A stretch of DNA of 10,981 nt from an uncultured Bacilli bacterium (GTDB taxonomy: Bacteria; Bacillota_I; Bacilli_A; RF39; UBA660): positions 1-10,981 of the forward strand of contig CANQUW010000029.1 in NCBI GenBank assembly GCA_947627145.1, in the 5' to 3' direction. Under the pieces are notes generated by a model, which was given only the letters and a program-made list of their open reading frames with translations, had not been told where the DNA came from and ran no database searches. Numbering within the stretch: position 1 is the stretch's first letter; the number at the start of each line of letters is the position of its first letter. Below, piece by piece: positions 1-10,981 of this stretch. Made by a program: the position numbers and the translations under genes.

Positions 1-241
1 TAGTCATATAAACAACCGCACCATCTTTTTCTAAAATCTTTTTTAATACTTTAGATATCTCTAAGTTAATATCTTTTTCATAAATATCTCCATACCAAGT
101 ACCACTATCGCGACCACCGTGTCCGGGATCAAGCGAAATCACGACACCATCCAAACTAACAGTCTTAGCCTCTATAAACTGTAATGTAAAAACCGACAGT
201 AGTAACATTATCAAAATAAAAGTCTTGTATTGTCGTAACAC
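1..241 (-). CDS. N-acetylmuramoyl-L-alanine amidase (Amidase_3), N-terminal part only
   Basis: Exported zinc amidase that cuts the bond between N-acetylmuramic acid and the L-Ala of the peptide stem in peptidoglycan. About 80 codons are present; the C-terminus lies beyond base 1. Residues about 7-23 form a hydrophobic signal segment followed by IEA-KT, a plausible signal peptidase I site. LDPGHGGRDSGT follows (His41 is the first zinc ligand), and Glu55 in YEKDINLEI is the second, the usual Amidase_3 pattern. Three in-frame starts exist: GTG at 250, ATG at 247 and GTG at 241. I chose GTG 241 because the Shine-Dalgarno AGGTGAT (252-246) overlaps the other two and leaves an 8-base gap from AGG to this one. 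ATG 247 is the alternative. Codons such as CCC, CGC and GCG make it richer in G+C than its neighbours. It lies downstream of the Nudix gene at 288-785 in the same direction. The family call is firm; the exact subfamily (CwlD-like or other) is not. Confidence 0.88.
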   Translation of the reverse strand, partial: MLRQYKTFILIMLLLSVFTLQFIEAKTVSLDGVVISLDPGHGGRDSGTWYGDIYEKDINLEISKVLKKILEKDGAVVYMT

Positions 242-281
242 ACTCATCACCTAATAAAGTGTATGCAAATATACAAGACTT
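220..281 (-). repeat. 11-bp inverted repeat flanking the amidase translation start
   Basis: Bases 220-230 (AAGTCTTGTAT) and 271-281 (ATACAAGACTT) are perfect reverse complements separated by 40 bases. In the amidase mRNA the left arm lies in the leader just after the upstream Nudix stop codon (288) and the right arm lies inside the first codons. The loop therefore contains the AGGTGAT ribosome binding site and all three candidate start codons. A smaller nested stem (ACACT pairing with AGTGT) closes more tightly around the ribosome binding site. This could be an RNA structure controlling amidase translation, or a chance or mobile-element relic. The pairing is seen directly; the role is inferred. 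Confidence 0.5.
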
Positions 282-287
282 AATATA

Positions 288-785
288 CTAATCATATTTT
301 CTATCATTAATTATTTCATATTTTAAAGTATTTTCATCAATTAATCTTTTAGCTACTTCTGGTAAAATAATACTATCTCTTGCAACATTTTTAGAAATCC
401 AATGTAAAGTAGTATCACTTTTATCACTCATAACAAAAGATTTATCTTGGTTAATAACACTATCTTTTTTCAATATGATTTTATAAATAAATAATATAGT
501 TTGTACTTTATGAATAACATTATCATCATCTTTATAATCGAAAAAATTTTCAGCTATTTCCAAAACCTCATAATCATCATTTACAATATCATAATTAATT
601 TCTTCTAAAATTTCTCTTCTTATAGCTTCTTTTGTAGTTTCCATAAATCTAACTCTACCACCTACAAGAGTAAAATGATTATCACCTGGCATTTTTTGAA
701 ACAAAAAATTATCACCAAACTTTATTACTGCAGCAACCCTATAATTAAACAAATCTTTTCCTTCTTTAAACTTTATATCTCTCAT
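288..785 (-). CDS. Nudix hydrolase with atypical Nudix box
   Basis: A 165-residue cytosolic Nudix-fold pyrophosphohydrolase. Such enzymes cleave nucleoside diphosphates linked to another moiety, using Mg2+ held by the Nudix-box glutamates. The box spans residues 43-65: Gly43, five residues, Glu49, seven residues, then R57-E58-I-L-E61-E62. All catalytic acidic residues are present, but the Gly expected after EEx is Asn64. The C-terminal Trp-Ile followed by ILPEVAKRLID is the usual tail of the fold. Start is ATG at 785, preceded by AAAGGAG (797-791) with a 5-base gap, an excellent ribosome binding site. The gene follows the HD gene at 979 after 193 AT-rich bases in which I could not assign a convincing promoter. 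The amidase follows downstream. The substrate cannot be inferred: the family includes NTP, NDP-sugar, dinucleotide and RNA-cap hydrolases. Sequence is Lys/Asn/Asp/Ile-rich. Confidence 0.9.
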   Translation of the reverse strand: MRDIKFKEGKDLFNYRVAAVIKFGDNFLFQKMPGDNHFTLVGGRVRFMETTKEAIRREILEEINYDIVNDDYEVLEIAENFFDYKDDDNVIHKVQTILFIYKIILKKDSVINQDKSFVMSDKSDTTLHWISKNVARDSIILPEVAKRLIDENTLKYEIINDRKYD

Positions 786-978
786 TTTTTCTCCTTTATA
801 TGCTTGTAATTCATTTCTTCAATTGTCCAAATGTAAAACAATATAATATCTATTGAAATATTATTATTATCACATTTTATAACTATATTCTTTGCAACAA
901 TAGTATTTTTATAATTTCAACAAATATCTAACTCTATTAATTTTTGTTTTTTATCAAAATGATACTATTTAACATTTA

Positions 979-1644
979 TTAAATTATGTCATTGTATTGT
1001 ACTTCTATATTATTAATTAAGAAAATATAGTTTTTATGTAAATACTTTGCTATTTTTTTTGGGATAGTAATTGCTTTTTTCCAATTAGCCAATATTTTCA
1101 AATCAAAATTATCATCAGTTTTGTAATTAACAATTAAATTTTCATCATTAATTGTAATATTAACTTCTTTTATCTTTTGAAATTCTCTATTAATCGTATC
1201 TTGAATACTAGAGTTAATAGTTCTGTGATAGGTTACATCTAATTTATCAGCTAATGTTAAAGCCAGACCAACTAATGACTGTATATCATCACCTTTTGAA
1301 TGATCATAAATTGCTTGTCTTACAATCTCTGTTTCTTCATTTGTTATATCATTTTTATTAATAAATTTATCAAACAGCTTACTACTTTCAATTGCATGAT
1401 TACTTTTGTCCCCTTTACTTAATCCTATATCATGTAACAATGCACAAACCATTCCTAATTCTATTGTTCTTTTGTCAGCATTTAATTGAACTAAAATTTG
1501 TTTGACATAGTTTGCTACTCTTTTACAATGACCTAATCCATGTTCCCAATCCCATTTTCCATCAGTAATAAATTTTGTATTTTCTATTTTTTTTATTATG
1601 TTTAAATACTCACTATTATTTAATACTTTATTATATAAATCCAT
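979..1644 (-). CDS. HD-domain metal-dependent phosphohydrolase
   Basis: A 221-residue cytosolic HD-superfamily protein. These enzymes use one or two divalent metals to hydrolyse phosphomonoesters or phosphodiesters, often of nucleotides. The metal-binding set is complete: His39 in HGLGHCKR, the His71-Asp72 doublet in ALLHDIG, His83, His115 in YDHSKGDD, and Asp133 in LADKLD. Residues about 140-221 form a smaller C-terminal extension without a motif I recognise. Start is ATG at 1644 with a modest GGTGA ribosome binding site (1655-1651, 6-base gap). A 110-base AT-rich gap separates it from the Nudix gene at 1755-2171 upstream, so it may share that transcript or have its own weak promoter; I could not place one. 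No RelA/SpoT synthetase domain or cyclic-di-GMP GYP signature is visible. The substrate is unknown. Confidence 0.87.
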   Translation of the reverse strand: MDLYNKVLNNSEYLNIIKKIENTKFITDGKWDWEHGLGHCKRVANYVKQILVQLNADKRTIELGMVCALLHDIGLSKGDKSNHAIESSKLFDKFINKNDITNEETEIVRQAIYDHSKGDDIQSLVGLALTLADKLDVTYHRTINSSIQDTINREFQKIKEVNITINDENLIVNYKTDDNFDLKILANWKKAITIPKKIAKYLHKNYIFLINNIEVQYNDII

Positions 1645-1732
1645 TATTATTCACCATTATAATTTTAACATATATTTGCATAAATATATATATAGTTTTT
1701 TTACTACTTAATTTAATTGCAATAAATTACAT

Positions 1733-1756
1733 AATTAATAAAATGTTTTATCAATT
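1733..1756 (-). terminator. AT-only hairpin at the 3' end of the Nudix pair, weak terminator or RNA stabiliser
   Basis: Directly overlapping the stop codon of the 1755-2171 gene, the minus-strand RNA can form AATTGATAAAA pairing with UUUUAUUAAUU. This is 11 pairs with one G-U wobble around a very short CA turn. The wobble pairs only in the minus-strand RNA; on the plus strand it would be A opposite C, which hints that the structure belongs to the minus transcript. There is no clean U-tract after it, so intrinsic termination would be inefficient and read-through into the HD gene is likely. Confidence 0.3.
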
Positions 1757-2171
1757 AACTTTTAATATTCTTAACTTCCAACACCTTATCAAAGAATATT
1801 TTAAATGATTCAGGAAAAGTTAAATTATCTGGTAATCTATCGGATAATAATATTTTAGACATTTCAAACTCTTCTGGTAAATTTCCTAATTCTTCTATTT
1901 CGCAATAACACAATAATCCAAAAGTACTTATCTTATATACACAAACTGGCTCTAATTTAATTTTAGTAGCACCCGTCTCTTCATACATCTCACGTTTTGC
2001 AGCTTCTTTCCAACTTTCGCCCTCTTCGATATGTCCACCTGGTATTTCCCAACCTTTTCTTTTTTTATTATATGAAAAAACAAACTTATCTTTATATCTA
2101 CTAACACATACAACTCTAGTATAATCTTTTTCTAAACAATATCCAAGTTCATAAGTTTTAACTGATAACAT
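1755..2171 (-). CDS. Nudix hydrolase, canonical box (possibly YtkD/MutT-like)
   Basis: A 138-residue cytosolic Nudix pyrophosphohydrolase. WEIPGGHIEEGES leads into a fully canonical Nudix box: Gly46, five residues, Glu52, seven residues, R60-E61-M-Y-E64-E65-T-G67. The IPGG lead and the late LPDNLTFPESFKIF segment resemble Bacillus YtkD-type 8-oxo-dGTP or RNA 5'-pyrophosphate hydrolases, but this resemblance is from memory and weak. Start is ATG at 2171 with GGAGGA (2182-2177) and a 5-base gap, a near-ideal ribosome binding site. It lies 27 bases downstream of another Nudix gene (2199-2630) with no room for a promoter, so the two are almost certainly one operon. Despite sharing a fold, the two proteins differ outside the box, so they are not a recent tandem duplication. 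The last bases of the coding region run into a hairpin. Confidence 0.92.
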   Translation of the reverse strand: MLSVKTYELGYCLEKDYTRVVCVSRYKDKFVFSYNKKRKGWEIPGGHIEEGESWKEAAKREMYEETGATKIKLEPVCVYKISTFGLLCYCEIEELGNLPEEFEMSKILLSDRLPDNLTFPESFKIFFDKVLEVKNIKS

Positions 2172-2198
2172 AATAATCCTCCATTTTTTAACTTATAT

Positions 2199-2630
2199 TT
2201 AAATTAATTCTTTTAATTTTAAAGCATCATAAGTAAGTGGACTAACATCATCCTTTTCTATATCATTTAAAGGACACCAAACAGCTCCTAAAGAGTCAAG
2301 ACCATCCGCATCACTCTTAATATCTCCATCTTCTACTTCTACATCATAAATAATTCCTATATGATGCATATGTTCTGTTACATTAAGATAAGGATTGTCC
2401 CAATCAACCACTACACTATTAGCGTCTATTATTTTACAATTCTTAACCTTCATACCAGTCTCTTCTAAAATTTCTCTTTTTAACGTATCAATCGGTTTCT
2501 CTCCATGCTCTATACTACCTCCAGGTAAATCATATTTTAAAGTATAAGCACCTCTAGACTTTTTTATGAGAAGTACTTTATCTCCTTTAACAACAACTCC
2601 ATAAACTCCCAAATGTCTCGTATTTTTCAT
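2199..2630 (-). CDS. Nudix hydrolase, canonical box (MutT-like), first gene of the Nudix operon
   Basis: A 143-residue cytosolic Nudix pyrophosphohydrolase. The N-terminal GVYGVVVKGDKVLLIKK strand pair is typical of MutT-like proteins. YDLPGGSIEHGE leads into the box: Gly38, five residues, Glu44, seven residues, R52-E53-I-L-E56-E57-T-G59. The C-terminal Trp with CPLNDIEKDDVSPLTYDAL matches the usual final helix of the fold. Start is ATG at 2630. The ribosome binding site is AAGGAGA (2647-2641) at a rather long 10-base gap. A TTGATT-17-TATAAT promoter lies just upstream, so this is the first gene of the transcript, with the 1755-2171 Nudix gene next after 27 bases. Expression is divergent from the 490-residue gene at 2798. 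The substrate is not deducible from motifs. Confidence 0.93.
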   Translation of the reverse strand: MKNTRHLGVYGVVVKGDKVLLIKKSRGAYTLKYDLPGGSIEHGEKPIDTLKREILEETGMKVKNCKIIDANSVVVDWDNPYLNVTEHMHHIGIIYDVEVEDGDIKSDADGLDSLGAVWCPLNDIEKDDVSPLTYDALKLKELI

Positions 2631-2660
2631 TTTTCTTTTCTCTCCTTAACACTTAATTAA

Positions 2661-2689
2661 ATTATAAACTATCTTATTAATATAATCAA
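2661..2689 (-). promoter_or_regulatory. Promoter of the Nudix operon
   Basis: On the minus strand, TTGATT (2689-2684), a 17-base spacer and a perfect TATAAT (2666-2661) match the sigma-A consensus. The start of the first Nudix gene lies 30 bases downstream of the -10 box, leaving a short leader that holds the AAGGAGA ribosome binding site. Confidence 0.75.
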
Positions 2690-2726
2690 TAAATCATATA
2701 TAACATTTATTGTAGTTTCTATTAAC

Positions 2727-2755
2727 TTTAAAAAAACATTGTTTTATGCTACAAT
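2727..2755 (+). promoter_or_regulatory. Extended -10 promoter of the 490-residue gene, with a spacer palindrome
   Basis: TGCTACAAT (2747-2755) is an extended -10 element, with TTTAAA (2727-2732) as a poor -35 box 17 bases upstream. The spacer contains the odd palindrome AAAACA-T-TGTTTT (2733-2745), a possible operator. The start codon at 2798 is 42 bases beyond the -10 box. Confidence 0.6.
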
Positions 2756-2797
2756 ATAACCCAAAAGAACAGAGCAAACAGAAAGGATTATATTAAT

Positions 2798-4270
2798 ATG
2801 GATACAATATTTTTAGAGTATTTAAAAAGTAAAATAGATATCACCAACAAAACAGACGAAAGAAAAATCTATAATATATTTGAAGAATACTGCACCATTA
2901 TTGAAAATACATATAATTATATTCAAAAAGAATATTATGAAAACATTAGTGACATCACAAAAGAAAAACAAAAACATTATTTAGAAAAAGAAATGATGGA
3001 TGTAATTATAGAGACTGAACCAGATTATTCATATCAAACAGAAAATTCAAAAAAATGGTATAGATTTTTTATTGACAAAAATCAAATTATTTCAAGAATA
3101 AGAACTTATATATATTATCTATCTGAAAAAGATAAAATGAAAAGTCATGAAGATTTTTTTCTTAATGAACAATTACGTATCTCACAAAATATATCAACAA
3201 CCAACAGAATTAAAGAAATAAAATCTAAAAATCGAAGAAAAATAAAAAAAGATAATAAAATAATTACTATGGTATTAGATGAACTAATAACAAAAAAACT
3301 ACAACTACAATCCAAATTAAATAAACAAGATATATTTAAAAGTAATATATGGAAAAATAATCTTAAAGATACATTTTTTTATAATGAAAATAAAATCAGC
3401 ATAGACAGATTAATTAATATATATTTATCCACTATAAAAAAGTTACATAAAGGATATTTAGATAATAGAATTTTTTATAAAAATAATAAAGAAATATTAA
3501 GAGAAAAAGAAAAAGAATTTTTAAAACAGACATATACAAAGAAAATCATTCTAGACAATAAAGTTAATTTAAGATTCTTTTTAAAACACAATAATCATAA
3601 TTTAGAAAAAGAAAATTTAACAAGAAATGATATAGTAATAATATTAGAATATTGTGGAATGATTTATTTTGGAGAAATTCCAAATAAGAAAAAGTTTTTA
3701 TCCTACAAAACAAATATAAAAAGTATTAAAAATATATTTGATGATTTACAAATGGAAAATAAGCAAAATATTGATGATTATCTAATAATTAAAAAGTTAG
3801 AAGAAGAAAAAAAGCAAAGACAAATACAAAATGCAAATAAAAGAATAGAAGAAATAACTTATGAGTTAGCTACTTTAAAAAAGGAAAGATCAATTTTATT
3901 AAATAAAAAAGTAGAAGATAAAATTAAAATAGATGAAAAAGATTTATTTGAAGAAAGAAATGGTATTAAATACATAAAAGATAAATATACAAATAACGAA
4001 ATATTAAAAATTTTAGATTTATTTCTTATATCATTTGATAATGTGGATATAAGAAATATAGATTTTAGAGGGTGTAATGCTTTTCGTTTAAATCCACAAA
4101 CAGTTTATAATAAAGATTTAACTAATACAAAATTTGACTTAAATGATGGTATATTTTTAAGTACTACTGATTTTACAGATGTAAACGTTTCTAACATGAC
4201 AGTTGAAAACTCAGAATTTTCTCTAGTATCATTTACAGGTTCAAAAGGAAAAGTAAAAAAAATAACTTAA
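2798..4270 (+). CDS. Unknown protein with coiled coil and C-terminal pentapeptide-like segment
   Basis: A 490-residue protein I do not recognise as a whole. It is extremely rich in Lys, Asn, Ile, Glu and Asp, with no signal peptide or membrane segment, so it is probably cytosolic. Residues 1-325 look mostly helical. Residues about 330-370 (LEEEKKQRQIQNANKRIEE onward) are a charged coiled coil. Residues about 413-479 carry a run of spaced Phe/Leu/Ile positions (DIRNIDFRGCNAFRL, later TTDFTDVNVSNM) like a degenerate pentapeptide-repeat beta-helix. Its Gly425-Cys426-Asn427 resembles a segment of the 1002-residue protein at 7865-10873. Start is ATG at 2798 with AAAGGA (2782-2787), 10-base gap, behind an extended -10 promoter. 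It appears to be a single-gene unit: the next gene on the strand has its own promoter. Very A-rich coding sequence suggests acquired or fast-evolving DNA. No catalytic motif was seen; a scaffold or host/phage-interaction role is only a guess. Confidence 0.85.
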   Translation: MDTIFLEYLKSKIDITNKTDERKIYNIFEEYCTIIENTYNYIQKEYYENISDITKEKQKHYLEKEMMDVIIETEPDYSYQTENSKKWYRFFIDKNQIISRIRTYIYYLSEKDKMKSHEDFFLNEQLRISQNISTTNRIKEIKSKNRRKIKKDNKIITMVLDELITKKLQLQSKLNKQDIFKSNIWKNNLKDTFFYNENKISIDRLINIYLSTIKKLHKGYLDNRIFYKNNKEILREKEKEFLKQTYTKKIILDNKVNLRFFLKHNNHNLEKENLTRNDIVIILEYCGMIYFGEIPNKKKFLSYKTNIKSIKNIFDDLQMENKQNIDDYLIIKKLEEEKKQRQIQNANKRIEEITYELATLKKERSILLNKKVEDKIKIDEKDLFEERNGIKYIKDKYTNNEILKILDLFLISFDNVDIRNIDFRGCNAFRLNPQTVYNKDLTNTKFDLNDGIFLSTTDFTDVNVSNMTVENSEFSLVSFTGSKGKVKKIT

Positions 4271-4278
4271 AGATTAAA

Positions 4279-4295
4279 TTTTATACATTATAAAA
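4279..4295 (+). terminator. Weak AT-only hairpin after the 490-residue gene
   Basis: TTTTATA-CAT-TATAAAA is a perfect 7-bp inverted repeat 9 bases after the stop codon, followed by ACTTTTTA. The stem has no G-C pair and the loop is only three bases, so termination is likely inefficient. It is the only candidate between this gene and the promoter of the next one. Confidence 0.28.
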
Positions 4296-4310
4296 ACTTT
4301 TTACAATTCA

Positions 4311-4339
4311 TTTATTATTAAATTAAATTTTGTTATAAT
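4311..4339 (+). promoter_or_regulatory. Extended -10 promoter of the metallophosphoesterase gene
   Basis: TGTTATAAT (4331-4339) is a perfect extended -10 element. TTTATT (4311-4316) is a partial -35 box at a 17-base spacing. The ribosome binding site GGGAGG (4348-4353) and ATG at 4361 follow closely. Confidence 0.7.
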
Positions 4340-4360
4340 ATAAGAAAGGGAGGATAAACA

Positions 4361-5257
4361 ATGGAAGGAAATAAACAAAGACAAATAGCAATTTTTACAG
4401 ATGCTCATGCTCTTAAAGAACCAGTTGAAGCTGTTCTAGAAGATATAAAACAAAGAGGAATAACAGAAATATATTCTTTAGGAGATAATATTGGAGTAGG
4501 TCCAAATCCTAGTGAAGTACTAGACTTATTAGAAGAAAATAATGTAAAATCACTAGCAGGAAACTCTGAAGAATATGTAACTTTAGGAACAGAACCTTTT
4601 GAATATTATTTTGATGCTCTCAAAGATCAAAGTCAATTATGGACTTTATCTAAATTAAATGAACATCAAAAAGGAGTAATATCATTATATCCACATTCAA
4701 TAGAACTTCTACTAGGAGGAAAAAAATTAGCTTTATGCCATTTTGCAAACGATGTTAGATCAGATTTTGCAGTTAACAGCACCTTCTCTTACCAAAATGC
4801 TATAAAAAGAAAAAAGAAAGCTTATAAACAATTTTTATACACTAATAGCACAGAACAAATTGACCTACTAGAAAGAATGGTAAAATTCTATGGAAAAGAT
4901 AGTCCTATGGCAAAAGGAGCACTATCAAGTTTAGAAGATCCTTTATTTAAGGGACAAACAATTGATAAATTTGATGCAATTATTCAAGGACATGTACATT
5001 GGAAAATATATGAAAAAACAAAAAAGACAGATTTTTATTCCATTAGAGCGGTAGGAATGGCTTATAAAAAAGACCCAATAGATACTGCATCTTATGTTAT
5101 ATTAACAGAAAAAAAAGATAAAAAAGGATTTAATTTAGACGAAGTATTAGTTAAGTTTGATCGTGAAAAAATGATATCAAGTATCTTAAATAGTGATAAT
5201 CCTGATACCACAATACGTAAATTTGTAGAACTAAACAACACACATAAAACTTTATAA
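4361..5257 (+). CDS. Calcineurin-like metallophosphoesterase
   Basis: A 298-residue cytosolic metallophosphoesterase of the large family that includes YfcE-type phosphodiesterases and serine/threonine phosphatases. All five metal-site blocks are visible: Asp14-x-His16 (TDAH), Gly41-Asp42-Asn43 in SLGDNIGVGPNP, Gly67-Asn68 in AGNSEEY, His127 in LCHF, and Gly209-His-Val-His212. The GDNxGxGPNPxEVLDLL form is typical of a bacterial subgroup annotated only as metallophosphoesterase. The third block reads GNSEE rather than the common GNHD or GNxD. An insert of about 80 residues (130-208), rich in Lys and helix-forming, makes it longer than the roughly 160-180 residues of YfcE. Start is ATG at 4361 with GGGAGG and a 7-base gap. 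It has its own promoter upstream and a strong terminator downstream, so it is monocistronic. The substrate is unknown. Confidence 0.9.
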   Translation: MEGNKQRQIAIFTDAHALKEPVEAVLEDIKQRGITEIYSLGDNIGVGPNPSEVLDLLEENNVKSLAGNSEEYVTLGTEPFEYYFDALKDQSQLWTLSKLNEHQKGVISLYPHSIELLLGGKKLALCHFANDVRSDFAVNSTFSYQNAIKRKKKAYKQFLYTNSTEQIDLLERMVKFYGKDSPMAKGALSSLEDPLFKGQTIDKFDAIIQGHVHWKIYEKTKKTDFYSIRAVGMAYKKDPIDTASYVILTEKKDKKGFNLDEVLVKFDREKMISSILNSDNPDTTIRKFVELNNTHKTL

Positions 5258-5265
5258 TAGCAAAG

Positions 5266-5292
5266 AAAGAACCCGACGGTTCTTTTATTTTT
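5266..5292 (+). terminator. Strong intrinsic terminator of the metallophosphoesterase gene
   Basis: AAAGAACC-CGAC-GGTTCTTT is a perfect 8-bp stem with a 4-base loop starting 9 bases after the TAA at 5257, followed by TATTTTT. It lies in the 47-base space between converging genes. Read from the copA side the hairpin is the same but the tail is CTTTGC, so it should work less well in that direction. Confidence 0.88.
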
Positions 5293-5304
5293 ATAAATAA
5301 TTAC

Positions 5305-7485
5305 TTATCTCCTAAGTCTCAAAGAATTTAGTACAACACAAAGACTACTAAAAGTCATAGAAACAGAAGCAATCATTGGATTCATAACAATTCCAAATCC
5401 ACTAAATATACCCATTGCAATAGGAATCATACAAGTATTATAGAAAAACGCCCAAAACAAATTTTGTTTTATAATTCTAATAGTTTTTTTACTAATAGAA
5501 ATAAGTAAAGGAATCTTTTCTAAATCATCATTCATTAAAATAACAGATGAAGAATTAGCAGCTATATCAGTACCACTATTAAAACTAATACCAACATCTG
5601 CACTTGTAAGACTAACTGCATCATTAATTCCATCCCCCACCATTGCAACCTTATGTCCTTCTTCCATATAATTTCTTATTACTTTATCTTTTTCTTTTGG
5701 TAAAACATCACTAACAACATTATCTATTCCTAAATCATCTGCAATAATTGATGCTGTCTTTTTATTATCCCCTGTAAGCATAATAACTTCTTTATCCATC
5801 TTTTTAAGTTTAGACACAACTTCTCTACTACTCTCTCTAACAATATCACGAACACCAATAAGTCCAAGTACTTCACTATCATTACTAACATAAACTATAC
5901 TATTACCATTTTTACTTAAATCTGTCTCATCACTTCCATGACCACTATTTATATTTAACTTCTTAAGTAATTTTCCATTACCAACATAATATTTATTACC
6001 ATTAATTATACCCTCTACTCCAAAGCCAGGTTCTTCTTTAAATGACGTAACATCCAAATTACCTTTACCCTTAAAAGCATTAGCAATTGGATGAGTAGAT
6101 TTACCCTCAATACTAGAGACTATTTTTAAAAGTTCTTCGCGACTAAAATTACTATAATTAAAAATCTTAGAAACTTGCAACTTACCATAAGTAAGAGTAC
6201 CTGTCTTATCAAATACAAATATATCTACTTTACCAACATTTTCAAGTGTCTTACTATCTTTAACTAAAATTCCACCTTTTGCACACTTACCTTCACTAAT
6301 AACAACAGCAAGAGGAGTAGCAAGACCTAAAGCACAAGGACATGCAACAACAAGTACTGAAACAAAAGTAGTAATAGATGTACTCATATCAACCCCTAAA
6401 AGTAAATAAAATACAAGAGTAAAAATAGCAATCATCATAATACCAGGAACAAAATATCCACAAACTTTATCAGCAAGTCTTGCAATAGGAGCTTTAGTAT
6501 TACTAGCTTCTCTTACTAATTTTACAATTTCAGATATAGTAGAGTTTTTTCCTATTCTTTCTGCTTTATACAAAACAACTCCACTACCATTCATACTTCC
6601 AGCAATTACCTTAGAACCTTTACTTTTTTTACTAGGTACACTTTCTCCAGTAATAAATGCCTCATCAAAGAAAGATTCTCCCTCAACAACTTCTCCATCT
6701 ACAGCAACTTTCATACCAGGTTTAACTATTAATATATCTCCCTTTTTAACTTCATCAATAGTTACTTCCCTCTCTTTATCACCATCTTTTATTAATGCTG
6801 TTTTAGGAGTAATCTGTACAAGATCCTTAATAGCATCTTTAGTCTTCTCCTTATTTTTACCATCGATATATCTACCTAATTTAACAAAAAATATAATTAC
6901 GGCACAAGATTCAAAATATAAATTATGAACATAATGCATATCACCATTAAAAATCATAATCATACTATATAAACTATATAAAAAACTAGATATAACGCCT
7001 AAACTTACCAAAGTATCCATATTAGGCATTCTATGAATTAAATTTTTAAAACCACTTTTAAATATATCAAAACCAAACACTAAAAAAGGTATTACAAGTA
7101 TAAAAAGTAAAACAGAGTAATTAACAGGATATTCCATAGATAAAAATGGTATAGAAGGAAACCCAATCATAGGAGCCATAGAAATATATAAAACAATAAC
7201 AGTAAGAGCACCATAAAAAATCAAATATTTTTTATCTTTATCATTAGAGTCATCATCTATTGTATCATCTACTGCTTCTCCTAAACTTTTAAAACCAGCT
7301 TCACTAACAAATCTATCTAAATCATCAATTGTAAGAATACTATCATCATACTCTATACTTGCTTCCTCCAAAACTAAATTAACACTTGCACTTTTAATTC
7401 CCTCTTGTTTATTTAAATATTTCTCTAAACCAGATGAACATCCACTACAACTCATACCATCAATTTTTAAAATTATCTTTTTCAT
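5305..7485 (-). CDS. copA: Copper-exporting P1B-type ATPase CopA
   Basis: Membrane pump that uses ATP to export Cu(I) from the cytosol. With the start chosen here it has 726 residues: one N-terminal heavy-metal domain with GMSCSGC (Cys13, Cys16), then eight predicted membrane segments in the P1B arrangement. The actuator loop has T279-G-E281; the transport site is C382-P-C384. The ATP-binding domain has the phosphorylated Asp426 in DKTGTLT, the His465-Pro466 dipeptide and G617-D-G-I-N-D. Tyr682-Asn683 in segment 7 and MTFSS (710-714) in segment 8 are the Cu(I)-specific marks, as opposed to Zn or Cd pumps. The first possible ATG (7494) directly abuts the ribosome binding site TAGGAG (7500-7495). 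The ATG at 7485 leaves a 9-base gap and gives MKKIILKIDGMSC, so I start there. The gene follows csoR by 12 bases in the same operon. No copZ chaperone lies between them. Confidence 0.96.
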   Translation of the reverse strand: MKKIILKIDGMSCSGCSSGLEKYLNKQEGIKSASVNLVLEEASIEYDDSILTIDDLDRFVSEAGFKSLGEAVDDTIDDDSNDKDKKYLIFYGALTVIVLYISMAPMIGFPSIPFLSMEYPVNYSVLLFILVIPFLVFGFDIFKSGFKNLIHRMPNMDTLVSLGVISSFLYSLYSMIMIFNGDMHYVHNLYFESCAVIIFFVKLGRYIDGKNKEKTKDAIKDLVQITPKTALIKDGDKEREVTIDEVKKGDILIVKPGMKVAVDGEVVEGESFFDEAFITGESVPSKKSKGSKVIAGSMNGSGVVLYKAERIGKNSTISEIVKLVREASNTKAPIARLADKVCGYFVPGIMMIAIFTLVFYLLLGVDMSTSITTFVSVLVVACPCALGLATPLAVVISEGKCAKGGILVKDSKTLENVGKVDIFVFDKTGTLTYGKLQVSKIFNYSNFSREELLKIVSSIEGKSTHPIANAFKGKGNLDVTSFKEEPGFGVEGIINGNKYYVGNGKLLKKLNINSGHGSDETDLSKNGNSIVYVSNDSEVLGLIGVRDIVRESSREVVSKLKKMDKEVIMLTGDNKKTASIIADDLGIDNVVSDVLPKEKDKVIRNYMEEGHKVAMVGDGINDAVSLTSADVGISFNSGTDIAANSSSVILMNDDLEKIPLLISISKKTIRIIKQNLFWAFFYNTCMIPIAMGIFSGFGIVMNPMIASVSMTFSSLCVVLNSLRLRR

Positions 7486-7494
7486 AAATTTCAT

Positions 7495-7500
7495 CTCCTA
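7495..7500 (-). promoter_or_regulatory. copA ribosome binding site overlapping the csoR stop codon
   Basis: TAGGAG serves two purposes: its first three bases are the TAG stop of csoR and AGGAG is the copA Shine-Dalgarno sequence. A ribosome finishing csoR is placed at the copA start, suggesting translational coupling. Spacing is 0 to the ATG at 7494 but 9 to the ATG at 7485, which decides the copA start. Confidence 0.8.
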
Positions 7501-7773
7501 ATTAATTTTTTTAATAAATTCCATAAACTCATCAATTATCTCTAATTTATCTTCTTTAATATCTCTAACTACACAAGTAGATAAATGATTTTTTAAAAGT
7601 TCATTTTCTACTCCTTTTAAAGACTTAATAACAGCAGTTATTTGAATTAAAATATCATTACAATACCTATCCTCTTCTATCATACCACGAATACCTCTAA
7701 CCTGTCCTTCAATTGTTTTAAGTCTAGTATCAAAATATTTCTTCTCACTAATATCTCTATGTTTTTCTTTCAT
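7498..7773 (-). CDS. csoR: Copper-sensing repressor CsoR
   Basis: Cytosolic Cu(I)-responsive repressor of the CsoR/RcnR all-helical family (DUF156). Apo-protein binds the operator; Cu(I) binding releases it and turns on copper export. The protein has 91 residues, the usual length. The ligand set Cys38, His63 and Cys67 has the 25 and 4 spacing of the copper-type C-H-C site. RLKTIEGQVRGIRGMIEEDRYC is the family signature, allowing for small variations. Start is ATG at 7773, with GAGGTG (7786-7781) and a 7-base gap. A longer frame reaches back to an ATG at 7821, but those codons cover the promoter and operator, so that start is rejected. It is the first gene of the csoR-copA operon and controls its own promoter through the palindrome at 7801-7813. 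A nickel, formaldehyde or persulfide sensor is unlikely given the ligands and the copA partner. Confidence 0.95.
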   Translation of the reverse strand: MKEKHRDISEKKYFDTRLKTIEGQVRGIRGMIEEDRYCNDILIQITAVIKSLKGVENELLKNHLSTCVVRDIKEDKLEIIDEFMEFIKKIN

Positions 7774-7792
7774 ATAAAAACACCTCAAAATA

Positions 7793-7821
7793 ATTATACC
7801 ACCCCCTGGGGGTCTAGTCAA
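7793..7821 (-). promoter_or_regulatory. csoR-copA promoter
   Basis: TTGACT (7821-7816), exactly 17 bases of spacer and a perfect TATAAT (7798-7793) form a near-consensus sigma-A promoter, the strongest in the window. The CsoR operator occupies most of the spacer, so repressor binding would physically block RNA polymerase. Confidence 0.92.
7801..7813. promoter_or_regulatory. CsoR operator palindrome
   Basis: ACCCCC-T-GGGGGT is a perfect 6+1+6 inverted repeat and matches the GC-tract operators known for CsoR repressors. It is strikingly G+C-rich in an AT-rich setting and sits between the -35 and -10 boxes of the csoR-copA promoter. Confidence 0.92.
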
Positions 7822-7831
7822 TTATATTGCT

Positions 7832-7862
7832 AAAAAAATGAATATACCAAAAGGCAATCCAT
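7832..7862 (-). terminator. Intrinsic terminator of the 1002-residue gene
   Basis: Three bases past the stop codon, minus-strand ATGGATTGCC (7862-7853), loop TTTT and GGTATATTCAT (7848-7838) form about ten pairs with two G-U wobbles and one bulge, followed by an uninterrupted U-tract (to 7832). It separates this transcript from the csoR promoter, whose -35 box begins 11 bases later. Confidence 0.75.
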
Positions 7863-7864
7863 TT

Positions 7865-10800
7865 TTATTTAACATTACTACTAACTGTACTTTTATTAAC
7901 ATTAACACTATCTAAATATTTTTTAAGAATATTCTTAATATTCTCATAATTATTACTATCTATATTATCTATATAATTAATATAAGGATATTCACTTTTC
8001 TTTAATAAATCAAAATCCTCACCAAAACTAAAAACATAATATAAATCTTTAAATTCTGAAAAATTATGACCATCTGCAGCATTTAAAAATTCACGTGAAA
8101 AATCAACAAAACTACCACCATTTTGTAAAATCATATCTTCAATTGCCTCTTCTTTAAGTCCTGAATCTTTAAGAATTTCTTTTCCAACCAAAATATTAGA
8201 AATAACATCCATATATTTTGATGAATCCTGCATTCTAATAGAATTAAGTCTATCTCTTAAAGCCATATCGTTAGAATAAACTATTCTATCTTTTCTACTA
8301 TCAAAAGTAATATTAATATCAACCAAATCTCCTAAAACATCTACATCTTTTAATACAAGTTTATCATCTTCTAATAAAACATCTTCTTTACCAAAACTTT
8401 TAACTAAATTATCTTTTATTGCAGTAAAATTATCCTTATTTAATATAATTTCTTTATCAAATCTTAACACAAAATTAAAATTTTTATCTTTAAAAGTATT
8501 AGTACCTCTACCAGTAGAACCAATATTTATAAATTCAACACTACCTTTTCTTATATCTCCATCTATCATAGTTTTAATATCTAATCCAAATGAAGAACAA
8601 ACATCCCTAACTGTATTATTAATAAAATTATTCTTTTCACTAGCATATTTTATATTATCATTAATCTTATCATTATAATATAAAACATCCTCATTAACTA
8701 AATTAGAAGAAAACTTAAAATCTGGATATCCATAATAACTAAGTCCATAAAGTTTTTCTTTCATCTTATCATAATCTTCTGGAGTAAATACAACTGTACC
8801 ATATTTATCTACAATAGGAATATAAAATCCATTTTTAACAATCTCCATACTAATAATTTTCGATACTTCATCAAAGTTTTCTCTCATTATAGCATCTATT
8901 TCACATGATGCAACACCACCACGAATAGCATAACCATTACCTGTATAAAAACTTTCTAACTTATTAGTTCTAAATTGTTTTTTAGATGAATCTAAAAAGA
9001 GTATATCTTCACCACTATCTGCTCTAGTAGTAATAAACCTATCATCATTTCTAAATAATAAGAAAGTATCTCCATAACCTGAAGCCTCAGTATTTGAAAC
9101 AGTATCCCAAAGTGTAACACCTTTTCTAAATACTTTACTTACATCAGTATCAAGAGGAGTAAAGTCTCTTGAAGCATTCACACCCAAAAAATCAACAGCA
9201 ACGCTACCATTTTGTAAAATATCAGGTAAAAACTTATAACTATCTATTCCCTTTACAAAATCCCCAGTTTGCAAAATAAAATCTTTTTTTGAGTTTTCTC
9301 TATTTCTTTTATCAGCACTTACTTTCTTTAAATCAATATAACTAACTAACTCGTCTACCGTTTCAATACCTGCAAAATAAGCAAAACATCTAACAATCCT
9401 ATCTGGTAAATCATCTACTATTTTACCATTCTCTGAAAATAATTTTTTTAATATTTCTATATCTTTTATATTATCATTACTAGAAATAAAATTATCACTT
9501 TTTCCTTTTAAAGTATTATTATAAAGTACAGAAAGTCTATCACAATACATATCTAAAATTCTTTTTTCAAAGAAATTAAGTTCATCATACTCTACTTCCT
9601 TATTACTAACCTTTTTTAATAAATTATCCCCTTGTTTAATGTTATATACATAATTTTTTAAAGACCTATTATTAGAACCCATACTAGCTTTTAATAAATC
9701 TGCAAAAAGTATAGCTCTCTTACCTCTATTAGAGCATTTCTTCAAAACAGGAGATATCATAGATCTATCTGAAAAATCAAAATCTTTAAAATTAGGATGC
9801 ATCATCTCAAACATCGAAAAAACTTCTCCTACATAAGGAAGACTACTCCTTAAAAACATATTCTCTATTTTTTCAAGTTCTAAAAAAGGTTCATCTAAAT
9901 CAAGTAACTGTGTAATAAGAGCATCTTTCACTTTAACAATTTCACTTGAATTAGAATAAGTCATTCTATTATATAATTCTAGTATCAAATTTATTTTATC
10001 AATATCAACAACATCTTTTAAAGAAATATAGTTAATAATATTATTTTTAAGTATAGAACCATCTATTCCATAAATAATATTTAATATCTTAAGTCTATTA
10101 CTTATATCATCTTCATTACTTTTAAATGATATATCTTCTAAAAATTCGAAATCTCTAAATTTATAATTAATAAGAATATCACATAAAATTTCTTCAGCAT
10201 CCTCATAAGATAAATTACTTTGACTAGTATAAAACATATTTCTTAAAGCCGCTCTTAAATCACTTGATTTAAAAATATTAGGATATTCATAAATCATCTG
10301 AAAAGTATTATCTTTACCAAAAGTCTTAAACAACTTTTCAACAACCATAACATCACTACTATATACAAATCTTTTACTATCATTTATATATTTCTTTAAT
10401 TCAGGATAAGATATTAAATCATCTATAGTAATCTTATATTCATAAAAACGTTCTCTTAAAGATTTAGGAAAAGACTTATCTAAAAAAAGTTCAGTATTAT
10501 TACTCACAAAAGATGGAGTAAAAGAATCCTCATCATAATACAAACTATCTACATTTACTACATTACAACCTTCTAAATTAAGTTTTCTATTATTAAGAGA
10601 AATATTTAATATTTTAAAATCTAAATTAGCATGTGTCTTTGAAAAATCTAAAACTCCATTATCAAAATAAAATTTCATATTAGCCCATTCTTCAAATGGT
10701 ACAAGACTTAAATCATTTGATAATAATTCTCTTTGTAATAAAATTGCTTCTTTCTTTGTATCATCAGCCCTAAAAAAATCATTACTTTGAATAAGAATTT

Positions 10801-10873
10801 TATATTGTTTTGATAAATCTTGTAATTGATTTTTAAATTTTCTAAACTCTAAAATATCTAATTTACTATCCAT
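7865..10873 (-). CDS. Large unknown protein with degenerate nucleotidyltransferase-like C-terminal domain
   Basis: A 1002-residue protein with no signal peptide or membrane segment, presumably cytosolic. Residues 1-60 look helical. Residues about 65-130 include FSKTHANLDF and LEGCNVVNVD (Gly102-Cys-Asn104), a segment echoed in the 490-residue protein at 2798-4270. Residues about 140-540 are mainly helical with no motif I know. Residues about 545-735 form a mixed domain containing LPDILQNGS, TPLDTD (572-577), ASGYGD (597-602) and IRGGVASCEID (650-660); an ADP-ribosyltransferase-like fold is a low-confidence guess. Residues about 780-900 start with IGSTGRGT (Gly785-Ser786), the helix-turn typical of polymerase-beta-type nucleotidyltransferases. 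The expected Asp-x-Asp is Asn798-Phe-Asn800, while VDINITF (Asp852) sits where the third carboxylate would be. Start is ATG at 10873 with AAGGA, 9-base gap. It has its own promoter and terminator, so it is a one-gene unit. Function unknown. Confidence 0.85.
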   Translation of the reverse strand: MDSKLDILEFRKFKNQLQDLSKQYKILIQSNDFFRADDTKKEAILLQRELLSNDLSLVPFEEWANMKFYFDNGVLDFSKTHANLDFKILNISLNNRKLNLEGCNVVNVDSLYYDEDSFTPSFVSNNTELFLDKSFPKSLRERFYEYKITIDDLISYPELKKYINDSKRFVYSSDVMVVEKLFKTFGKDNTFQMIYEYPNIFKSSDLRAALRNMFYTSQSNLSYEDAEEILCDILINYKFRDFEFLEDISFKSNEDDISNRLKILNIIYGIDGSILKNNIINYISLKDVVDIDKINLILELYNRMTYSNSSEIVKVKDALITQLLDLDEPFLELEKIENMFLRSSLPYVGEVFSMFEMMHPNFKDFDFSDRSMISPVLKKCSNRGKRAILFADLLKASMGSNNRSLKNYVYNIKQGDNLLKKVSNKEVEYDELNFFEKRILDMYCDRLSVLYNNTLKGKSDNFISSNDNIKDIEILKKLFSENGKIVDDLPDRIVRCFAYFAGIETVDELVSYIDLKKVSADKRNRENSKKDFILQTGDFVKGIDSYKFLPDILQNGSVAVDFLGVNASRDFTPLDTDVSKVFRKGVTLWDTVSNTEASGYGDTFLLFRNDDRFITTRADSGEDILFLDSSKKQFRTNKLESFYTGNGYAIRGGVASCEIDAIMRENFDEVSKIISMEIVKNGFYIPIVDKYGTVVFTPEDYDKMKEKLYGLSYYGYPDFKFSSNLVNEDVLYYNDKINDNIKYASEKNNFINNTVRDVCSSFGLDIKTMIDGDIRKGSVEFINIGSTGRGTNTFKDKNFNFVLRFDKEIILNKDNFTAIKDNLVKSFGKEDVLLEDDKLVLKDVDVLGDLVDINITFDSRKDRIVYSNDMALRDRLNSIRMQDSSKYMDVISNILVGKEILKDSGLKEEAIEDMILQNGGSFVDFSREFLNAADGHNFSEFKDLYYVFSFGEDFDLLKKSEYPYINYIDNIDSNNYENIKNILKKYLDSVNVNKSTVSSNVK

Positions 10874-10897
10874 TTATATCATTCCTTCTACAAAATA

Positions 10898-10926
10898 ATA
10901 ATATCAAAAAGAACTTCTTTAGTCAA
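10898..10926 (-). promoter_or_regulatory. Promoter of the 1002-residue gene, with a spacer palindrome
   Basis: TTGACT (10926-10921), a 17-base spacer and TATTAT (10903-10898), with TG one base before the -10 box, form a strong extended promoter. The spacer holds the odd palindrome AAAGAA-C-TTCTTT (10908-10920), which could be an operator. The gene starts 24 bases after the -10 box. The remaining bases to 10981 are AT-rich and show no gene. Confidence 0.75.
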
Positions 10927-10981
10927 AACAATTAACATTAGCCTATACACATTATATACACAAACATACTATATTTCAGGT

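Follow-up and report, generated by a model that had tools for sequence, protein, structure and literature searches.

A Bacilli protein pairing a predicted ADP-ribosyltransferase fold with a putative pseudo-nucleotidyltransferase

Introduction

The DZF domains of NF45 and NF90 are animal pseudo-nucleotidyltransferases, and they are described in PMC11952958 as raising the affinity of their complex for double-stranded RNA (dsRNA) more than tenfold. OASL belongs to an OAS-type family whose other members are active, but is itself inactive; it is described as combining dsRNA binding with an inactive nucleotidyltransferase (NTase) domain (PMC4351405). Here, we describe a 1002-residue protein encoded in 10,981 nucleotides of DNA from an uncultured Bacilli bacterium (contig CANQUW010000029.1 of assembly GCA_947627145.1, positions 1 to 10,981; hereafter the window). 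Its C-terminal NTase appears to lack all three metal-binding aspartates, and the predicted ADP-ribosyltransferase (ART) domain before it keeps most of its invariant residues. The NTase half of this protein probably keeps a non-catalytic role.

NF45 and NF90 differ from the window protein in being eukaryotic and heterodimeric, NF90 with dsRNA-binding domains, and have no ART domain. OASL is a vertebrate protein with other attached domains. The CD-NTases (CdnC, CdnD and CdnE) and the class I CCA-adding enzymes share the NTase fold and an aligned GS...TN...DxD pattern, but they keep the Asp residues that the window protein lacks; they are also smaller, active and not known to be fused to an ART domain. 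As for membership among the CD-NTases of CBASS, the best match of the NTase profile to PDB sequences is a weak one to CdnE (6e0m, E 0.085), the PADLOC oligonucleotide cyclase weakly matches two of five family proteins (E 0.02-0.03), and the window protein itself matches no PADLOC family at E ≤ 1. The nearest structural neighbors of the ART domain are Tpt1/KptA and DarT, for neither of which was a Pfam or NCBIfam match of the window protein found at cut-off. The RNA 2'-phosphotransferase Tpt1/KptA gave no sequence match to the ART profile in the PDB, and where Tpt1 chains are longer, the ART domain aligns with their second half only, the other half being an RNA lobe. DarT is a DNA ADP-ribosyltransferase paired with DarG, whereas the Bacilli loci examined here have no conserved partner gene. 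Finally, the polyvalent proteins that phages and conjugative elements encode are described as long polypeptides with ART and Pol-beta NTase domains among others (PMC5512222). Unlike these, the window protein found no relative by tblastn in plasmid and phage collections, nor did one pattern scan of viral contigs find any; a viral structure library gave no match at E ≤ 0.001. ART precedes NTase in all the aligned family members. Among open-licence papers, we found no description of an ART-NTase fusion.

The Metal Site of the NTase Half

The features of the NTase half are as follows.

7874..8701, minus strand: residues 725-1000, NTase fold by structure prediction and comparison
8501..8521, minus strand: GSTGRGT, residues 785-791, kept
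8480..8482, minus strand: N798, codon AAT; Asp in every examined homologue covering the column
8474..8476, minus strand: N800, codon AAT; Asp in every examined homologue covering the column
8312..8314, minus strand: N854, codon AAT, most likely the third metal Asp position; Asp in all examined homologues covering the column but one (Glu in P0189)
8132..8161, minus strand: residues 905-914, degenerate GGLGGVGxENW motif; the preceding YKP loop is missing

Positions 7865-10873 of the minus strand form an uninterrupted open reading frame from an ATG start. A preliminary description, made from the DNA letters alone, had reported AAT codons for Asn798 and Asn800 in this frame, at 8482-8480 and 8476-8474, and they are indeed there. 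Judged by alignment, the three presumed metal-ligand Asp have become Asn, the C-terminal loop is shortened and altered, and the ART invariants are mostly kept. At 797-800 the window has K-N-F-N against G-D-F-D in all 119 listed homologues, and at 852/854 it has D-I-N against their D-x-D; VDINITF in the window is mostly VDIDITF in the homologues. Among 112 frames from genome loci, the 106 that cover 798/800 all read D, D, and column 854 is D wherever a residue is present. These frames count many genes twice, as loci L078-L106 re-cover genes already sampled, and they retain the partial or frame-broken L048, L066, L069, L071 and L076 with gaps set aside. A further 80 short relatives include 69 covering 798/800, again all D, D, with 76 D, one E (P0189) and three gaps at column 854. 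Twenty NTase-bearing frames checked from two genome searches, a set that overlaps the former in part, carry D at each of the three positions without exception. The locus sample is unbiased towards DxD because the two patterns of the genome scan, SDxTPLDTD and NGFYIP, both fall in the ART region. The Asp pair is found at the aligned position in every covering relative, and among the proteins examined, Asn stands there in the window copy only.

The third metal position is most likely column 854, which is Asp nearly everywhere, whereas column 852 is variable (D, E, N, Q, K or S in the locus frames); D852 was rejected as the third metal Asp for that variability. The statement in the preliminary description that the rest of the pattern was kept, therefore, does not hold: the third Asp is also Asn, and GLKEEAIEDM stands where the family has GGLGGVGxENW. 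Elsewhere in the domain, G785, S786, T787, R789, N792, D806 and K898 are kept. The predicted structure has the fold of the Pol-beta/OAS-type superfamily, an NTase palm with a helical domain, as had been suspected. As for the motif set of the active enzymes, GS is present, and N798, N800 and N854 replace D, D and D. An NTase fold without the metal-binding Asp would make this domain a pseudo-nucleotidyltransferase, and a pseudoenzyme is still the best reading.

An HEPN domain was also considered for the C-terminal part and rejected; the Pfam HEPN_RiboL-PSP matches fall in the NTase helical half. Those matches are just above cut-off on P0138 (347-471) and P0140 (406-530) and below it on P0136, hinting that the HEPN_RiboL-PSP family is related to NTase helical domains.

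Specificity and Age of the Loss

The window retains 56 and has lost 13 of the 69 columns with ≥97% conservation, the highest loss of any well-covered row. The next is L061 with 10/69, and it keeps all three Asp, as do the other divergent well-covered rows. One misaligned partial frame of L071 (18/30 columns lost) was left out of this comparison. Retention is 37/40 in residues 330-776 versus 19/29 in 776-1002 (Fisher p 0.010). Nine of the conserved columns are Asp; Asn has replaced each of the three metal ones, and the remaining six are unchanged (hypergeometric 1/84). The Asp-to-Asn pattern exceeds chance.

In the tree, the window sits among Bacilli members, with P0023, P0005 and L018 as neighbors, on an end branch of 1.0 versus a median of 0.39. 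Fork support is 89-92, below the 95 mark and not decisive, and the letter composition of the window row is unusual. Because of that position on a long end branch among Bacilli members, the loss of the metal Asp appears to be derived and may be old.

The ART Half and the N-Terminal Parts

The remainder of the gene and the site in front of it are arranged as follows.

7865..10873, minus strand: open reading frame of 1002 codons; N-terminal domain, helical region, predicted ART fold and putative pseudo-nucleotidyltransferase in that order
8702..9286, minus strand: residues 530-724, predicted ART fold, most family-invariant residues kept
9251..9253, minus strand: K541 of the F-x-K-G-I strand, kept
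9143..9160, minus strand: T572-D577, TPLDTD signature of the ART domain, kept
8954..8956, minus strand: E640, invariant Glu of the ART domain, kept; candidate catalytic Glu, a role that we infer
9290..10408, minus strand: residues 156-528, helical region; 205-228 and 237-239 have a predicted local distance difference test (pLDDT) <50
10409..10873, minus strand: residues 1-155, N-terminal domain common to other large Bacilli proteins
10898..10926, minus strand: promoter-like site TTGACT-17-TATTAT with TG, a consensus match only (10/12)

The structure model of the whole protein has a pLDDT of 81.3 and a predicted template modeling score of 0.70. About 780 residues had been called unrecognized, but a predicted ART fold at 530-720 and a helical region lie among them. 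The predicted structure places the domain in the ADP-ribosyltransferase superfamily by fold, and 29 of 31 near-invariant columns are kept in residues 530-776. The helical region carries a recurrent family pattern, seen by eye, resembling P..LR..FY...IT...L..PE. Three of the large Bacilli proteins sharing the N-terminal domain were read, and each has a different C-terminus. The domain layout appears to be modular, the C-terminal enzyme being the part that can be exchanged.

The three proteins are at L122:2632-7683 (minus strand), L123:1299-6281 (plus strand) and L124:175-4872 (plus strand). They have similar helical repeats by eye and no ART or NTase profile match in the C-terminal part. A TDCC...CMEH pattern in them may resemble PcfJ; no Pfam match was found at cut-off.

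Family and Distribution

A search with the window protein scored 7995 candidates of 0.55-1.75 times the query length and returned 751 homologues at E ≤ 0.001. The best 120 of these, the query itself excepted, are 925-1751 amino acids long and 34-42% identical over 70-90% of the query, with alignments mostly spanning residues ~198-1000. They have no precomputed Pfam domains, and the only name seen is "hypothetical protein". The window protein is a member of a large unnamed family and not an isolated protein. Pfam assigns it no family at E ≤ 1, and no NCBIfam model matches it at the model's cut-off; Pfam cut-offs are passed by just a few short relatives. PDB sequence searches gave two weak unrelated matches with the window protein and one with profile A1.

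By genome scan, 93 stretches encode a relative, and 77 loci were kept, mainly from uncultured Bacilli and also from Clostridia, Saccharibacteria, Uhrbacteria and other Patescibacteria. Two overlapping genome sets had any match in 7/395 genomes (one class) and 41/385 (one order). These are lower bounds, with at most two candidates per genome scored in most rows, and part of the matches reach the N-terminal part only. Neither search contained a closer relative of the window protein. The family looks accessory and patchily distributed. At least two copies occur in G003, G013, G016 and G022 of 29 genomes searched. Tandem genes, up to three in a row, are seen at L031, L072 and G022:C6, and very long open frames match the ART-NTase part at G614:C12 (5105 amino acids) and G441:C32 (6816 amino acids).

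Across the 77 loci, no neighbor gene is common to more than eight, and the Bacilli loci have no conserved partner. A protein of ~152 amino acids is encoded just downstream of the family gene in eight loci (L045, L046, L047, L054, L055, L066, L069 and L072), all labelled Clostridia or Clostridium; it is a possible partner. Direct neighbors of 100-900 amino acids were scanned in 84 of 115 cases, the remainder, mainly near-duplicates, being left out. Pfam matched 121 families in the 84, the 25 shown being largely housekeeping plus two resolvases, one integrase and one type IV secretion system coupling protein; PADLOC matched 43, each of the 25 shown in one or two neighbors.

Gene Neighborhood in the Window

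The gene has a GC content of 24% (36/26/10% by codon position). The preliminary description had credited it with its own strong promoter and terminator. The promoter-like site is present, although such sites are frequent in 7300-10981 (45 found versus 30.1 expected); no terminator-like site was found by scanning the same interval. Rfam gave no match at gathering thresholds. Other genes of the window encode three Nudix proteins, an HD protein, a 490-residue protein, a phosphoesterase, and a metal-sensitive repressor adjoining a metal P-type ATPase, which we take to be CsoR and a copper transporter. As noted before, nothing among them suggests a partner. The best listed match of the ATPase (193 genomes) is 66% identical, in G389, which also encodes a DxD-bearing ART-NTase. 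The 490-residue protein (2798-4270, plus strand) is weakly pentapeptide-repeat-like at its C-terminus and has no Pfam family above cut-off.

Discussion

We consider it probable, on sequence and predicted structure, that the NTase half of the window copy is non-catalytic and serves the ART half as a scaffold, a regulator or a nucleic-acid-binding domain. Several points weigh against this. Both folds rest on prediction; Foldseek against the PDB gave no match at E ≤ 0.001 for either (best E 0.011 for NTase and 0.036 for ART), and the ART profile A2 had no PDB sequence match at E ≤ 5. The ART domain has lost the family-common residues K560V, E561D, H647G, G649A and T652G and might be impaired too. 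Any rate increase across the whole NTase is weak, with the window ranking 6/64 in NTase divergence relative to ART (one row without value). The closest relative found stands at 46% over 705 columns, so that selection on a dead domain is not measurable, and the Asn state rests on one contig.

A sensor, in which a nucleoside triphosphate or RNA bound via GSTGRGT switches the ART domain, is a possibility that we would not expect to hold. The kept residues G785, S786, T787, R789, N792, D806 and K898 speak for it, and loss of the Asp need not abolish binding because both NF90-NF45 (structural neighbors here, and pseudo-NTases according to PMC11952958) and the CdnD D62N/D64N mutant have been solved with nucleotides, going by the entry titles (UTP, ATP and CTP for the former, ATP for the latter). 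However, the window lacks or has altered the YKP...GGLGGVGxENW loop that almost every relative conserves. That the window copy is an inhibitor or decoy whose partner is an active member of the family encoded at another place in its genome seems unlikely to us; NF45 and NF90 are paired pseudo-NTases (PMC11952958) and some genomes do hold multiple copies, but the 11-kb contig has no second one. Slightly less likely again is a decaying gene whose intact frame is residual. The long end branch and the number of lost conserved columns, the highest of any well-covered row, would fit decay, whereas a frame that stays open over 1002 codons at 24% GC and is strongly structured by codon position, and the retention of 56/69 near-invariant columns overall and nearly all in 530-776, argue otherwise. 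An error of sequencing or assembly in the Asp codons is hardly credible, even with the protein found on one contig only, given three separate G-to-A changes exactly at metal positions, against a background of ~60% divergence and with a coordinated loop loss.

Returning to the non-catalytic domain, the family plan would be a helical part at the N-terminus followed by a domain of ADP-ribosyltransferase fold and then the nucleotidyltransferase at the C-terminus, probably coupling NAD+-dependent modification with nucleotidyl transfer. The ART half would use NAD+ to modify a target, perhaps nucleic acid because its nearest structural neighbors, Tpt1/KptA and DarT, modify nucleic acids. In the window copy, nucleotidyl transfer is very likely gone and the ART domain appears conserved, and what is left of the NTase most likely serves to hold, regulate or guide it. 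A bolder proposal, which we put forward with considerable doubt, is that the two halves act on one target, e.g., one nucleotidylating and the other ADP-ribosylating the same RNA end. The window NTase would then be a guide or sensor steering an active nucleic-acid ART, in a derived branch of an unnamed fusion family of Bacilli, Clostridia and Patescibacteria.

The analysis brings to notice a large family (751 matches) pairing a predicted ADP-ribosyltransferase fold with a CD-NTase-like fold. The window copy would be a natural catalytic knock-out with the partner domain kept, bearing the same Asp-to-Asn change as the engineered CdnD D62N/D64N, and it would allow a direct test of which half works and what the NTase contributes without catalysis.
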